Positions 3,891 to 34,892 of a stretch of 64,000 nucleotides of DNA are shown here, in pieces. The notes beneath the pieces are model-generated. The model had not been told where the DNA came from. It did not search any database and saw nothing but the letters and a program-made list of their open reading frames with translations. The stretch comes from Fibrobacter sp. UWB5 (GTDB lineage Bacteria; Fibrobacterota; Fibrobacteria; Fibrobacterales; Fibrobacteraceae): positions 62,001 to 126,000 of the forward strand of contig NZ_MWQH01000004.1 of assembly GCF_002210295.1 (NCBI RefSeq), given 5' to 3'. Position 1 is the stretch's first letter, and the number at the start of each line of letters is the position of its first letter. A program made the position numbers and the translations under genes.

Positions 3891-5435
3891 ATGAAAAAAG
3901 AACAAATTAAATCGTATTTGTCCCTTGTCGTTGCGGCAATGTTGTCTCAGGTTGTGGCATGCAGCCCGCCCAATGACGCCCACGAATCGAACCACGCCGG
4001 CGTGCTCACCGAAACCGAATCGGGGCACACCGTGGCTTTTACCCTCCACTCCTACGTCGACGAATACAACCCCAAACAGTCGGCCAAGGTCAATTTCGCA
4101 CTGACCAAAATCGTAGACGGCAAGACAAAATTGTTGGATTCCGCCACCGTCAAATACGGGGACTACGCCGTATTCGAAGACATAACGGGCGCTTACAGCG
4201 TCGTTGCGACCGCAACAGGACTGAACGGCGAAAAAGACACGCTCTACGGCGTCGATGTCTTGAAGCGGAACGATGTGGACACGGTCTACGTCCGCGTGCA
4301 GGAACCTGCCACCCTGAAGATTTCGACCTCTTACACCGAAACCGTCAAGAGCAGCCACGGCGAAGAAACGCAAGAAATTTTCTCTGAAGGCTCAACCCTT
4401 TGCATTACGGGAACCCTCACTTGCAAGAAGATTTCCAAGGACGACATCAAACGCGGTTACGCCATCGTCAAGAACATTCCGCTTTTTGACAACGAAGAAT
4501 ACGTCAAGCAAATTGAAATTCAAAGCGGCAAGGAACTCCGCACGCTGGGCGTCGAATGGAATTTCAGCGCCGGCGACACCCTGTACGCAAGCGAATCCGT
4601 GATTGCAGAAAAGAGATGGCTCGATTTCGATTTCGAGCTCCCGGAATCGGACATGTACGACACGATAGGCGGTGCCGTGATCGATTCGCTGATCGTCCCG
4701 GTCAAGATTGCCGATGACGATTTCTACCATTACAATTGGAAAGCAGATTTCTTCCTAGACCAACTCGGCAACGTCATCTCCACTTCTTCGAAGAAAAAAG
4801 ACTTGCTCAACGATACGACTCTATACTGGATTGTCGTACCCAAGATGGATCCGACCGCGAAGTTGACGTTAGCAAGCGGAGAATTAAAGGACTCCTATAC
4901 ATACAATCGTCTCAGAGCCTACTGGCCCGAAGTAGAAAAGGACACTCTTTGGCGTTGGATTGAAGTGTTCGAAGATTCCAGCTTCGCCATCAGTTTCTGG
5001 CTTGAACTGGACAGCCTTGCCGACAGCACCGTCCTGCTGGGCAACTGCGATAGCCTGGGCTTCGAAATCCGCCGTTGCCAGAAGGATTCTTCCGCCATCT
5101 GCACTAGAATCTATAATGGCATCGACACCGCCTCTACCGATTCTATCGAATACGGCAAGGCAAGCATTCTTGACGGCAAGCGCCACCACTACTCGCTCGC
5201 CATTCACAAGAAGCACTTGACGATTGCGGTAGACGGCGAGACCATCCGCGATACCGATTTGAAACTGTCCGAAGAATTCTACAACGTCGAAGGAATCCGC
5301 GCTACCCCCGGTCTTGCGCACGAGATTCTGCTCTATTCCTTCGGAGACTTCATTCGCTACCCGGGCGACAGAAGCTGGACGCGCCTAAAAGCCTGGCTCT
5401 ACGCCTTCTACGAAATGCAGAAAGATATTTTCTAA
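3891..5435 (+). CDS. lipoprotein with C-terminal LamG/concanavalin-like domain
   Basis: 514 aa. The signal peptide ends in the lipobox VVAC (about residues 21-24). The middle contains beta-rich segments of unknown family with DSATVKYGDYAVFEDI, similar to carboxypeptidase-regulatory-like folds. The C-terminal third has a LamG-like pattern: ISFWLELDSL, then DGKRHHYSLAIHKKHLTIAVDG, typical of sugar- or protein-binding jelly-roll domains. AGGGAT precedes the ATG. It follows the TIGR02147 gene by 22 nt and ends at a strong terminator. The cargo is probably an outer-membrane or periplasmic binding protein; no catalytic motif is visible. Confidence 0.8.
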   Translation: MKKEQIKSYLSLVVAAMLSQVVACSPPNDAHESNHAGVLTETESGHTVAFTLHSYVDEYNPKQSAKVNFALTKIVDGKTKLLDSATVKYGDYAVFEDITGAYSVVATATGLNGEKDTLYGVDVLKRNDVDTVYVRVQEPATLKISTSYTETVKSSHGEETQEIFSEGSTLCITGTLTCKKISKDDIKRGYAIVKNIPLFDNEEYVKQIEIQSGKELRTLGVEWNFSAGDTLYASESVIAEKRWLDFDFELPESDMYDTIGGAVIDSLIVPVKIADDDFYHYNWKADFFLDQLGNVISTSSKKKDLLNDTTLYWIVVPKMDPTAKLTLASGELKDSYTYNRLRAYWPEVEKDTLWRWIEVFEDSSFAISFWLELDSLADSTVLLGNCDSLGFEIRRCQKDSSAICTRIYNGIDTASTDSIEYGKASILDGKRHHYSLAIHKKHLTIAVDGETIRDTDLKLSEEFYNVEGIRATPGLAHEILLYSFGDFIRYPGDRSWTRLKAWLYAFYEMQKDIF

Positions 5436-13549: not shown

Positions 13550-13623
<74 letters not shown>

Positions 13624-28856: not shown

Positions 28857-28912
28857 TACTCTTCTAAGTTCTGCAGTGCCGAAGGCACGATCTAAGTTCT
28901 ATCAACTATTTC
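28857..28912. repeat. heptad-phased CTAAGTT repeats flanking a hairpin
   Basis: TCTAAGTTCT occurs at 28863-28872 and 28891-28900, exactly 28 nt (four heptads) apart. Between them is GTGCC-GAA-GGCAC (28876-28888). After the second copy the phase continues with CTATCAA and CTATTTC, the latter providing the stop codon of the minus-strand gene. Confidence 0.6.
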
Positions 28913-30720
28913 ACGTCGTATTCCGGAATCGGGAGGGATTCGCCGGCCTTCATGGCCTTGTCAAGCGCTGCGGACTTTGCCGGATCGAGCCACCAGTAAA
29001 CCGGGATGGCGTCTTCGCGGTTAAAGCGGTCCAGCACCTTTTCAGGCGTGCCGTAACGGTTCCAGTAAAGAATGCGGTGATGGTCGCATTGCCACATGAG
29101 CACATACGGCACGATTTCGGCGAGGCGGTTGTCCAGCGCCTTCAGGATTTCGTTACGCTTCGCGAGGTCGAATTCCGTCTTCTGCAAGTTGATAAGGCTA
29201 TCCACCACCTTGTCCTGCACGCCGGCGAGGTTGTTCGTGCCCTTTTGCAGTGCGGTTGCCGAAGACCAGCTTGCTTCCGGATCGCGGAGACGGCCTGCGC
29301 CCCAGTTCACCCAATAAAGGTCAAAGTCAGCATCGTCCAGGCGCTTGCGGAGCGTGCTCTGCGACATCTGTTCGATAGTGGCCACAACGCCCACCTTCTT
29401 CAAGTCTTCCTGGAAGAGCGTGAGGTGACGCAAATCTTCTTGGCTCGTGATAAAGTTGATGGCAAACGGTTTGCCATCTTTTTCGAGAACACCCTGGGCA
29501 TTCACCTTGTAGCCAGCCTCAGCAAAGAGGGCACGGGCGCTGTCGGGGTTAAAGGTATAGAGTGGAGCCGTCGGGTTCTGGTTGTTTTCCCACAAGTCCG
29601 GGTAGTAGCTGTTCAGCAAGAAGTACTGGCCGAACATGTACTTTTCGTTCATGGCTTCGCGATTCAGGAGCATGCTCAAAGCGCGGCGCACGCGAACATC
29701 CTGGAACTGGGGCTTGCGCAAGTTGATTGCCATACCCTGGAAACCGATCGGTTCCTTGTTGAAGATGCGCTGCTTTACAGCCCAGCCTTTCTTGACGGCA
29801 TCGAAGTCCGTCTGTTTCATCCAGATGCTGCTGGTGTAAATGGCGTAGGCGTTGAAGTCTTGCTTCTTGAAGGCTTCGAGGGCCTTCGTCTGGTCGTTCA
29901 TAAAACGGTAGCGGATCTTTTCAAAATTGTACTTGCCGCGGTTCCAGTTCTTCTTGAAGCCCCACCAGTCGGCGCGGCGAGCAAGTTCTACATAGCGGTC
30001 TTCGCGGAAGGTCTTGATGATGTAAGGGCCAGAAACCACCGGGAAATCGTAGCGGATCTGGTTAAAGTCCTTGCCGGCCCAAGCGTGCTTCGGGAAGGCG
30101 AGCATGCCTGCGGCTTCCCAGAAGTTACCCCAGTGAGATTCCTTGGCGGTCATCCTGACCGTCAGGCTATCCACCACTTCGGGGCGGTCAAAGCGGCTAA
30201 GCCCCACCTTGAAAATCGGCGTCAGGTTCTTTTCATCCATGATGACGTCGTAGTAGAACTGCACGTCTTCGGCGGTAATCGCCTTGCCGTCGCTCCACTT
30301 GGCGCGCGGGTCCACATGGAAGGTAAACGTCTTGCCGTCTTCGGACACATTCCAGCTGTCGGCGAGGATTCCCACTTCGCGGTCTTCAGTTGAATGCAAA
30401 CTTACGAGAGGTTCGAACATCATGCCCATGAGTTCGGCCGAGAAACTGTTGTAGTCTTCCCACATGTTAAAGGACTTGGGCATCGCCGAGCCCCAAAGCG
30501 TAATCGTTCCGCAGGGGCGGGCATCCTTCGAGGCAATCGGGTCGAACTCGCCCGTGGCCGTAGAATCCAGCGGGAGTTCCGGGCAGTTCAAGTCCGCACT
30601 TTTCGAGCCCGCGCTCTTGGAGGCACCAGACTCGTTGCAGGCGGTAAGAGAAAAAGCCATCAGCGCCGCAGAGACAATTGCTGCGCCATAAAAACCCATT
30701 CTATTTTTTTCGATTTTCAT
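28906..30720 (-). CDS. family 5 extracellular solute-binding lipoprotein (YejA/OppA-like)
   Basis: 604 aa. Binds peptides or similar solutes for an ABC importer; here anchored as a lipoprotein (lipobox SLTAC). Family features: DSWNVSEDGKTFTFHVDPRAKWSDGK-type segment, AEDVQFYYDVI, VSGPYIIKTF, FQDVRVRRALSMLLNRE and FNPDSARALFAEAGY. The long middle with EPIGFQGMAINLRKP is closest to YejA-like members. I chose the ATG at 30720; a TTG at 30747 lies inside an inverted repeat. No permease or ATPase gene is adjacent, so the transporter is elsewhere or the protein has another role. It lies downstream of a lipoprotein gene and the pseudouridine synthase gene on the same strand. Confidence 0.88.
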   Translation of the reverse strand: MKIEKNRMGFYGAAIVSAALMAFSLTACNESGASKSAGSKSADLNCPELPLDSTATGEFDPIASKDARPCGTITLWGSAMPKSFNMWEDYNSFSAELMGMMFEPLVSLHSTEDREVGILADSWNVSEDGKTFTFHVDPRAKWSDGKAITAEDVQFYYDVIMDEKNLTPIFKVGLSRFDRPEVVDSLTVRMTAKESHWGNFWEAAGMLAFPKHAWAGKDFNQIRYDFPVVSGPYIIKTFREDRYVELARRADWWGFKKNWNRGKYNFEKIRYRFMNDQTKALEAFKKQDFNAYAIYTSSIWMKQTDFDAVKKGWAVKQRIFNKEPIGFQGMAINLRKPQFQDVRVRRALSMLLNREAMNEKYMFGQYFLLNSYYPDLWENNQNPTAPLYTFNPDSARALFAEAGYKVNAQGVLEKDGKPFAINFITSQEDLRHLTLFQEDLKKVGVVATIEQMSQSTLRKRLDDADFDLYWVNWGAGRLRDPEASWSSATALQKGTNNLAGVQDKVVDSLINLQKTEFDLAKRNEILKALDNRLAEIVPYVLMWQCDHHRILYWNRYGTPEKVLDRFNREDAIPVYWWLDPAKSAALDKAMKAGESLPIPEYDVK

Positions 30721-30722
30721 TT

Positions 30723-30754
30723 TAACTATCTCGTATTTTTCGTACAAGATAGTT
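30723..30754 (-). promoter_or_regulatory. hairpin between lipoprotein stop and solute-binding protein start
   Basis: AACTATCT (30724-30731) pairs AGATAGTT (30747-30754), with a further GTA/TAC after one mismatch and a 7-nt loop. It begins at the upstream stop codon and ends three bases before the ATG, so any ribosome binding site (GAGATAG) lies within the stem. Confidence 0.55.
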
Positions 30755-31620: not shown

Positions 31621-32172
31621 TTAAATAACTTTATCAGTAACCACGCACCACTCGCCCGGTTTCAAATCACCCAGAGGAATATTGCCGATTTTTACGCGAA
31701 TTAGGCGGAGTGTCGGGAACCCTACTGCCGCGGTCATGTGGCGGACCTGGCGATTTTTGCCTTCAATGAGCGTGAGACGCACCCAGCTCGTGGGAATGTT
31801 CGCGCGAAAACGTACCGGCGGATTGCGCGGCCAAAGCCAGTCCGGCTCCTCGGCAATCTCTGCCTTGCAGGGCTTGGTATGGTAGCCCTTGATGTCGACA
31901 CCCTTGGCAAGCTGGCGCACCGCCTCTTCGGTAATCTGGCCGTCCACCTGGGCCAAGTAGGTACGCGGGTGTTCAAACTTCGGATCCAGCAGTTTCTTAA
32001 TCAGCTTGCCGTTGTCCGTCAACAAGAGCGCACCTTCGCTGTCGTGGTCCAAGCGCCCCGCCGCATACACGCCCGGCGGGAACCCGAACGTGTCGAGCGC
32101 TGCATGGCCCGACTCCGGCGTGAACTGGCTTAAAACGCCAAAAGGCTTGTTGAACAAGATAACCGTAGACAT
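31621..32172 (-). CDS. rluE: 23S rRNA pseudouridine synthase, RluE-like (RsuA family)
   Basis: 183 aa. Converts a uridine of ribosomal RNA to pseudouridine. The catalytic motif is GRLDHDSEGALLLTDNG (nucleophile Asp in GRLD); the family's KPFGVLSQF start and the GKNRQVRHMTAAVGFPTLRLIRVKIG region are present. It lacks the N-terminal S4 domain found in RsuA and RluB, as expected of RluE. The upstream region has TACCTT about eight bases before the ATG and no clear Shine-Dalgarno. Exact target uridine is inferred from the subgroup only. Confidence 0.88.
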   Translation of the reverse strand: MSTVILFNKPFGVLSQFTPESGHAALDTFGFPPGVYAAGRLDHDSEGALLLTDNGKLIKKLLDPKFEHPRTYLAQVDGQITEEAVRQLAKGVDIKGYHTKPCKAEIAEEPDWLWPRNPPVRFRANIPTSWVRLTLIEGKNRQVRHMTAAVGFPTLRLIRVKIGNIPLGDLKPGEWCVVTDKVI

Positions 32173-32184
32173 CAGAGATAAAGG

Positions 32185-32273
32185 TAGAAAATAGTTGCTA
32201 GAGCTTAGTTGGTAGAACTTAGAAGAATCATCTAAGCTCTAAGATCTAAGTTCTAAAATCTAATTACTATATT
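32185..32273. repeat. inverted array of twelve heptanucleotides
   Basis: Six consecutive 7-mers beginning TAG (32185-32226; for example TAGAGCT and TAGAACT), a 5-nt spacer, then six consecutive 7-mers beginning CTA (32232-32273; for example CTAAGCT and CTAAGTT). The right set is largely the reverse complement of the left: TAGAGCTTAG matches CTAAGCTCTA and TAGAACTTAG matches CTAAGTTCTA. The last heptad is CTATATT, containing a -10-like element next to the epimerase start codon. Confidence 0.8.
32268..32273 (+). promoter_or_regulatory. candidate -10 (TATATT) of the epimerase gene
   Basis: Ends 7 nt before the ATG at 32281 and forms part of the last unit of the heptad array. No Shine-Dalgarno is visible between it and the start, so a leaderless transcript is likely if it is used. 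Confidence 0.45.
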
Positions 32274-32280
32274 TCCTCGC

Positions 32281-33318
32281 ATGAAAATTTTGGTTACAGG
32301 TGCAGCAGGTTTTATTGGTTCCAAGCTCATGTTCATGCTTGCAGAACGCGGCGACGAAGTGGTAGGCCTCGACAATATTAACGACTATTACGATGTACGC
32401 CTCAAGTACGGCCGCCTCCGCGAAGGCGGCATTGAACAGCCCGGCGACAACTTCGCCTACGGCGCCATGGTTCAAAGCTCCAAGTACAAGAATTGCCGAT
32501 TCGTAAAGATGGGCATCGACGACAAGGAACCCTTAGACAAGCTCTTTGCCGAAGAAAAATTCGACAAGGTCGTGAACCTCGCCGCCCAAGCAGGCGTGCG
32601 CTACTCCATCACGAACCCGTATGCCTACCTGCAAAGCAACCTGGTCGGATTCCTGAACATTCTGGAAGCCTGCCGCCACAACCAAGTCAAGTATCTCGTG
32701 TTTGCCTCGTCCAGTTCCGTGTACGGCCTCAACAGCAAGGTGCCCTACAGCGAAGACGACAAGGTCGACAATCCGGTAAGCCTGTACGCCGCCAGCAAAA
32801 AGAGCAACGAACTCATGGCCCACAGCTACAGCAAGCTTTACAACCTGCCCGTCGCGGGTCTACGGTTCTTCACCGTATACGGTCCGTGGGGACGTCCCGA
32901 CATGTCGCCCATGCTCTTTGCCCGCGCTATTTCCAAGGGCGAACCCATCAAGGTATTCAACAACGGCGACATGATCCGCGACTTTACCTACATCGACGAC
33001 ATCGCCGAAGGCACCATCCACACGCTGGACCATGTGCCCGATGCCGCCAAGTGCCCGAACAACGTACCCTACAAGATTTACAACATCGGCTGCAGCCACC
33101 CCGTAAAGCTTATGGACTTTATCGCCGAAATCGAAAACGCTTACGGCGAGCCTGCCAAGAAGAACTTCTTGCCCATGCAACCCGGCGACGTGTACCAGAC
33201 CAACGCCGACACCACCAAGCTCGAAACCGAGTGCGGCTACAAGCCCCACTGGAGCCTGCACGACGGCATCGCCGAATTCATGAAGTGGTACAAAAGCGAC
33301 AAGAACCCGTTGAGGTAA
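32281..33318 (+). CDS. NAD-dependent epimerase, probably UDP-glucuronate 4-epimerase
   Basis: 345 aa, extended short-chain dehydrogenase. NAD-binding GAAGFIG (residues 7-13), catalytic SSSSVYG near residue 143 and YAASK (Tyr169, Lys173). The sequence GLDNINDYYDVRLKYGRL and the RFFTVYGPWGRPDMSP block are typical of UDP-glucuronate/galacturonate epimerases (CapI/LspL group) that feed capsule, lipopolysaccharide or exopolysaccharide synthesis. It starts directly after the heptad array and is followed 20 nt later by a barrel protein gene. UDP-glucose 4-epimerase is a less likely alternative. Confidence 0.9.
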   Translation: MKILVTGAAGFIGSKLMFMLAERGDEVVGLDNINDYYDVRLKYGRLREGGIEQPGDNFAYGAMVQSSKYKNCRFVKMGIDDKEPLDKLFAEEKFDKVVNLAAQAGVRYSITNPYAYLQSNLVGFLNILEACRHNQVKYLVFASSSSVYGLNSKVPYSEDDKVDNPVSLYAASKKSNELMAHSYSKLYNLPVAGLRFFTVYGPWGRPDMSPMLFARAISKGEPIKVFNNGDMIRDFTYIDDIAEGTIHTLDHVPDAAKCPNNVPYKIYNIGCSHPVKLMDFIAEIENAYGEPAKKNFLPMQPGDVYQTNADTTKLETECGYKPHWSLHDGIAEFMKWYKSDKNPLR

Positions 33319-34235: not shown

Positions 34236-34892
34236 ATGACTAAAGAACAATACGCAGAAATGCTCAAAGACATCAGCGAAACTCACAAGCAAGGAGGGAA
34301 TATTTCAGCCTGCATCGAAAGCATCTCATTCGTAAATCCTGCCATCGTCGCCCCGTTCAGCAAGAACATCACGTCGGACATTGTAGCGGAAGACCAGCAC
34401 CTGGATCGCATCGTACTTGAAGTACAACATGTCTGCGGCGATTCGTATCGCGACCGTCTCGTTCTTTACACGGCAAAACACACCGTTGCAAGCCGCGTTA
34501 AAGGCGAAGATTACAAGCTCAGAAATTTGAACCTCATCAGCCTCCAGATGTTCAACGGATTCCCGGAGTCTTCGAACTACAGGCACACCATTCGGCTCAA
34601 GAACCAGGACAACGAAGTTTATTTTGACAAGCAGACCATCACCTTAGTCGAAATCCCTAAATTGTGTATCTTTACAGAAGAATTTCTTGTAAGTGAGGCG
34701 ATGAAAATGAGCGACCACAACTACGAACTCTACGTCGAAAAAAAACAGGCCCGCGAAGAAGGCCTCGCGGAAGGTCGCGCAGAAGGACGCGCAGAAGAAC
34801 GTGCCGACAACCTTGCCGTATTGCAAGACATGAACCTGTCGCCCGAACAAATTGCCGAATTCAAGGCCAGACTCGAAGCACGCGGGAAATAG
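34236..34892 (+). CDS. PD-(D/E)XK nuclease family (Rpn/transposase-like) protein, N-terminally short
   Basis: 218 aa. The core SDIVAEDQHLDRIVLEVQH followed by YRDRLVLYTAKH matches the D ... ExQ ... R-x-x-Y pattern of PF12784-type PD-(D/E)XK proteins, which are often annotated as transposases or recombination-promoting nucleases. The C-terminus has the usual Glu/Arg/Ala-rich stretch (EEGLAEGRAEGRAEERA) and a final helix. The usual N-terminal FK-x-LFG segment is missing, so it is about 60-80 residues shorter than most members; whether active is unclear. AAAGGA precedes the ATG. Upstream DNA shows no inverted ends of an insertion sequence. Confidence 0.7.
   Translation: MTKEQYAEMLKDISETHKQGGNISACIESISFVNPAIVAPFSKNITSDIVAEDQHLDRIVLEVQHVCGDSYRDRLVLYTAKHTVASRVKGEDYKLRNLNLISLQMFNGFPESSNYRHTIRLKNQDNEVYFDKQTITLVEIPKLCIFTEEFLVSEAMKMSDHNYELYVEKKQAREEGLAEGRAEGRAEERADNLAVLQDMNLSPEQIAEFKARLEARGK

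Follow-up and report, generated by a model that had tools for sequence, protein, structure and literature searches.

A heptad array between two divergent promoters of Fibrobacter sp. UWB5 as a probable copy of a dispersed intergenic repeat

In the genome of Fibrobacter sp. UWB5, two divergent genes, one for a 23S rRNA pseudouridine synthase and one for a sugar epimerase, are separated by 108 bp, most of which is taken up by an array of seven-base units. The locus raises the question of where such a strictly phased array comes from and what it does between two genes that face away from it. Heptanucleotide repeats have long been noted in bacteria and, to our knowledge, have no accepted cause. 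Herein, the array was analysed within a 64,000-nt stretch of DNA (the window), across the genome and in related genomes. It is probably one member of a dispersed family of non-coding heptad hairpins that lie between genes, was inserted in phase with TAG or CTA words already in place and resized by slippage, and acts here as DNA by spacing two promoters.

Layout of the array and its promoters

The left half of the array (32185-32226) reads TAGAAAA TAGTTGC TAGAGCT TAGTTGG TAGAACT TAGAAGA and the right half (32232-32273) reads CTAAGCT CTAAGAT CTAAGTT CTAAAAT CTAATTA CTATATT, after which seven bases lead to the epimerase ATG at 32281 (Table 1). A sequence-only reading had described six TAG heptads, a 5-nt spacer and six CTA heptads, a description that is exact, and had found the strict phasing unexplained by any named feature. 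The array proved real: it is the sole six-word phased run of TAG or CTA in the window when periods 5 to 12 are scanned, and equal phasing was never reached after shuffling, with a maximum of four phased copies of any trinucleotide in 2000 dinucleotide shuffles of the 108-bp gap and of three to four in 30 shuffles of the whole window. The arms, which had been described as inverse complements, do pair, but imperfectly (78% over 27 nt). Another tandem repeat, with a 12-base unit, lies at 34752-34801 in ORF 34236-34892 and encodes a repeated EGRAEGR motif near the C terminus.

Table 1. Features in and around the array (positions in the window)
Feature	Position	Strand	Basis or remark
Second, decayed copy of the family	28864..28912	-	stop codon of gene 28906-30747 in its first TAG
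rluE-type 23S rRNA pseudouridine synthase gene, left neighbour, transcribed leftwards	31621..32172	-	TIGR00093 above cut-off
rluE promoter -10 region, TACCTT on minus strand, 14 nt before ATG	32181..32191	-	AAAGGTAGAAA conserved
Left arm, TAGTTGC TAGAGCT TAGTTGG TAGAACT TAGAAGA	32192..32226	+	covariance-model match, 89 bits, E 2.8e-18
ATCAT spacer between arms, hairpin loop region	32227..32231	+	sequence and fold
Right arm, CTAAGCT CTAAGAT CTAAGTT CTAAAAT CTAATTA	32232..32266	+	model match; 14 nt missing in L287
CTATATT with epimerase -10 element TATATT, 13 nt before ATG	32267..32273	+	older than the array
NAD-dependent sugar epimerase/dehydratase gene, right neighbour, transcribed rightwards	32281..33318	+	

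The best NCBIfam match of the left neighbour is RluE, below cut-off. The TAGAAAA of the rluE -10 region doubles as the first heptad of the array, and both -10 elements stand 7-8 nt from their start codons. In array-rich loci as in unbiased samples, TANNTT is over-represented 12-13 nt ahead of start codons; in the unbiased samples from this genome it occurs 15 times at -12, against about 3 per position. This peak is the signature of leaderless promoters, and the rluE and epimerase promoters look leaderless and divergent. A sigma-70 scan gave nothing better than chance. Since the two promoters point outwards and look leaderless, neither the rluE nor the epimerase transcript should include the array. 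The last unit had been claimed to supply a -10-like element; the element is real, as the TANNTT enrichment indicates, but the array is not its source, as it is also found in relatives that lack the array or carry a different one.

The same gap in related genomes

In two related species, G004 and G036, no array is present: the promoters stand back to back, their start codons are separated by 35-41 nt, and between them lie only the outward-facing AAAGGTAGAAA and CTATATT or CTATCTT. A different heptad insert, with units CTACTTC, CTACTGC and CTACCGT, occupies the same site in G009 and G029, and G019 has the UWB5 family there in a shorter form, its loop being foreign. The AAAGGTAGAAA element is kept in all five genomes, whether an array is present or absent. 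Because the outermost heptads contain -10 elements that are also present in array-free relatives, both are older than the array, which was added between two older promoters. The inserted part accordingly spans only about 32192-32266, five heptads on each side, with the outer TAGAAAA and CTATATT as promoter elements, since both exist in relatives without any array.

This difference bears on what the array could do at the locus. Measured from TAG to CTA, the -10 elements are 9-15 bp apart in array-free relatives and 82 bp apart here, a shift that the array would bring about. At 82 bp, both promoters could be occupied at once; they would otherwise overlap, which points to a spacing role for the array. 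However, G004 and G036 manage without an array, which counts against this role.

The array also differs in length between relatives, a kind of comparison that the sequence-only reading had suggested for strains. The copy in L287, a metagenome-derived Fibrobacter succinogenes genome that shares about 87-94% identity with this one near the locus, is shortened by exactly 14 nt, equal to two heptads of the right arm. Length differences of 14, 14 and 42 nt from L287 were found at other loci, and in other relatives the L041/L106 pair shows a 14-nt difference and the L113/L084 pair two such 14-nt events. These steps support the repeat slippage proposed earlier from the sequence. Against it, the loops and arms of some copies are rearranged, as in the L033/L096 and L039/L103 pairs, in a manner beyond what simple slippage explains.

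The repeat family and the wider period-7 class

A genome-wide search for TAG/CTA heptad arrays, as the earlier reading had proposed, uncovered a family. With five phased TAG words as the pattern, the genome returned 33 matches, overlapping and spread over many loci. A covariance model built from eleven copies identified 22 full copies and the pattern search about 10 half copies, for a total of about 32 dispersed, intergenic copies. Their common core is TAGTTGG-TAGARCT-TAGTTGG-TAGARCT-TAGA, followed by a short loop and then TCTAAGYT units; the left-arm units are TAGTTGG, TAGAACT or TAGAGCT, and the right arm holds their complements. Copies sit in divergent, tandem and convergent gaps, a few gene boundaries around them having been set by simple ORF picking with no gene caller. 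The genome statistics were drawn from the pattern and model searches plus random 20-kb stretches.

The copies are in register with words that belong to the neighbouring genes. Of 14 TAG or CTA words of -10 elements, 9 stand in heptad phase, where 1/7 is expected by chance (P 2.5e-5). By hand count, 16 of the 21 stop codons in contact with an array are TAG, compared to 89 of 295 genes genome-wide (P 4e-5). In the second copy within the window, the ABC-transporter substrate-binding gene at 28906-30747 ends with the first TAG of the repeat. For genes that end at an array, relatives lacking it frequently show TAA instead (L036, L037, L038, L045 and L049); in many cases the array thus provides the stop codon.

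The core was present in 13 of 37 Fibrobacter genomes and in none of 23 outside the genus. A scan of public genomes for the core returned Fibrobacter records only, except for one Candidatus Absconditabacteria contig (L280), where an exact single family arm lies at 4161-4184; transfer, binning error or decay may account for it. Array-free orthologous sites were found at further loci, including L035, L037, L038, L044, L045, L047, L049 and L115. Arrays common to two species are 96% identical, versus 80% for third codon positions and 92% for other intergenic DNA, a contrast that is partly ascertainment, as the array pairs were partly found by similarity; such identity may reflect selection or a function beyond spacing at some loci. 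A literature search for such repeats in Fibrobacter returned no paper.

Several loci hold additional or different sequences. At L032, L039 and L114, the loop of the family copy contains a complete intrinsic terminator that is conserved between species. At sites of the TAGARCT family, G029 has a family of TAGACAG, TAGGAAG and TAGGCAG instead (L054 1420-1500, L184 and L181), and L161 and L159 have TGTAATG paired with CATTACA where this genome has the TAGARCT family (L043). Furthermore, in L258 (RUG10152), the ortholog of L049, an unrelated 85-nt insert lies exactly between the array and the -10 word; such gaps therefore collect several kinds of insert.

Seven-base phasing extends beyond this family. 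In intergenic DNA from random 20-kb samples of this genome, G029, G039 (same class) and G055 (same phylum), the last two outside the genus, 38 degenerate tandem arrays were found at lag 7, compared to 0-4 at each of the remaining lags between 4 and 16 apart from 14, which is twice 7. A degenerate-match lag test was used, a version requiring eight exact matches having given too sparse counts. The density of period-7 arrays is uneven across genomes, since samples from G028 and G045 contained none. Many of the lag-7 arrays are accompanied by an inverted partner no more than about 120 bp away and fold as long hairpins, and the sampled unit sequences are mutually unrelated (TGTAATG, TTCGGAA, ATGAGAA, GTAGACG and ATGAAGG). 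In the Fibrobacterota class, period 7 and the inverted layout are constant and the sequence is variable, and heptad arrays of so many sequences across the phylum suggest a shared way of making them.

Competing explanations and known systems

The number of copies (about 32), the arrival between pre-existing promoters, the TAG/CTA register and the length steps of two heptads can be read directly from the sequences compared. A DNA-level process would have spread the copies, probably one in which strands switch at the hairpin, aided by TAG/CTA microhomology, and replication slippage would have resized them after insertion. No moving enzyme was found for the family, the search for a parent element having covered PF01797. 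Judged as a MITE, the repeat shows evident insertion at empty sites, but no clear or constant target-site duplication.

It is distinctly unlikely that the array, once transcribed, works as a hairpin in RNA, be it as terminator, attenuator or mRNA stabiliser. The array region does fold better than its shuffles (z -2.7 and -3.3), and the intrinsic terminators in the loops of some copies (e.g., L032, L039 and L114) are real. Nevertheless, the genes point away from the array, and with -10 elements so close to the start codons their transcripts should exclude it. In addition, the variable base of the arms (A/G on the left, T/C on the right) combines independently, with 13 G-U and 13 A-C cells when all pairs across 23 copies are counted; pairing is therefore not being maintained. 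The covariation term gives no support, no terminator-like site (G+C-rich stem plus T run) occurs in 32185-32273, and an Rfam search of the array returned no family, with one sub-threshold plant miRNA match only. The RNA structure once raised as a possible role is thus unsupported at this locus. It is rather unlikely that the heptads are binding sites through which a protein regulates both genes. Multiple phased sites, symmetric about the centre, and sequence conservation between species at several common loci would suit it; however, relatives keep both promoters with no array or with unrelated heptads there, copies occur in promoterless convergent gaps (L033, L037, L038 and L045), and a seven-bp unit does not match a helical repeat, although three such units span 21 bp.

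Other readings concern how the array came about. An origin in place by slippage from the TAG/CTA promoter words, with the array immobile and the other copies convergent, would match the strict register with -10 words and the growth by whole heptads. It is quite improbable, as about 32 loci share the non-trivial core TAGTTGG-TAGARCT-TAGTTGG-TAGARCT...CTAAGTT, which is not expected from separate slippage. A REP/BIME-type palindrome moved by a RAYT (TnpA-REP, a Y1 transposase) would likewise be intergenic, palindromic and dispersed, and the word GTAG is common in the left arm, but seven-base internal repetition is foreign to REP. PF01797 (Y1 transposase) is present in 11 of 38 genomes of the genus and has no match in this genome, where the repeat copies are far more numerous than in any other; membership in this group was rejected on that absence, and the reading is highly improbable. 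It is also extremely unlikely that the units are three-frame stop cassettes, with TAG, TAA or TGA per seven bases acting on both strands through the inverted layout. All-frame stops on one strand occur in 23 of 38 sampled lag-7 arrays versus 14 expected (maximum of 24 in 200 simulations), and arrays often provide the stop codon of the neighbouring gene; yet this excess is weak, as both arms of one element are counted, and several heptad families contain no stop.

Altogether, a dispersed repeat that arrived between two older promoters is the reading retained here. The genomes compared also show that promoter and stop-codon sequences undergo rewriting at these gene borders. A broader extension is doubtful: an active, sequence-indifferent process in Fibrobacterota may build or insert inverted arrays with seven-base steps at gene borders, the TAGARCT, TAGRCAG, TGTAATG, TTCGGAA, ATGAGAA and ATGAAGG families being products of one mechanism, each primed by a short word such as the TAG of stops and -10 elements. 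If so, unrelated heptad families would be the output of one mechanism and not separate mobile elements. The related genomes provide empty sites, filled sites, exact 14-nt steps at the same loci and many unrelated sequences, and the phylum includes cultured rumen bacteria, so that what sets the number seven becomes directly testable. One proposal for heptads, as cited in two studies, is polymerase slippage set by a seven-base contact (PMC4679880; PMC4692102).

Among known systems, the cyanobacterial STRR heptanucleotide repeats consist of tandem seven-base units at many intergenic loci. They differ from the Fibrobacter array in sequence and phylum, and an inverted pair is not their defining layout; a Calothrix case is cited in PMC4692102. 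TAACTGA heptamer repeats occur in Beggiatoaceae, Cyanobacteria and Bacteroidetes and are likewise intergenic arrays near starts and stops, with relatives that lack them and indels in 7-nt steps (MacGregor, 2015; PMC4679880). They are nearly all direct and of one unit, with one indirect repeat reported in the main genome studied, whereas the Fibrobacter repeats have inverted arms and many units. The GGGAATC and GGGGA(T/C)T heptameric repeats of Xanthomonas and Nostoc are over-represented in intergenic DNA, some are inverted, and their length varies between close species (Rehm et al., 2015; PMC4692102); they are G-rich and quadruplex-forming, in contrast to the A+T-rich Fibrobacter units. The units TAGTTGG, TAGAACT and TAGAGCT match none of the described TAACTGA, GGGAATC and GGGGAYT. 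REP/BIME elements are also short, palindromic, intergenic and dispersed, but have no internal 7-base period and are partnered by the Y1 transposase that is absent from this genome.

In the P6b stem of the Nostoc trnL group I intron, heptanucleotide repeats of classes I and II have been described (Kaasalainen et al., 2015; PMC4476775). Their architecture is that of the Fibrobacter array, with seven-base units on both arms of the stem, two unrelated unit classes that are interchangeable at one site between strains, and 14-nt insertions (PMC4476775). Unlike the dispersed, intergenic and here probably untranscribed Fibrobacter array, they belong to one self-splicing intron RNA. Membership was rejected, as the array lies between rluE and the epimerase gene, outside any trnL intron, and the one tRNA of the window is at 13550. 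As in the dispersed heptanucleotide class (STRR/TAACTGA kind), the Fibrobacter family has a seven-base tandem unit at many intergenic loci, and its length differs between relatives by multiples of 7 nt (14 and 42 nt). The cyanobacterial heptanucleotide repeats and the Nostoc P6b stem are its nearest known counterparts. The array fits the dispersed heptad repeat class by unit length, location and stepwise change, and differs from it in sequence and in its regular inverted layout.
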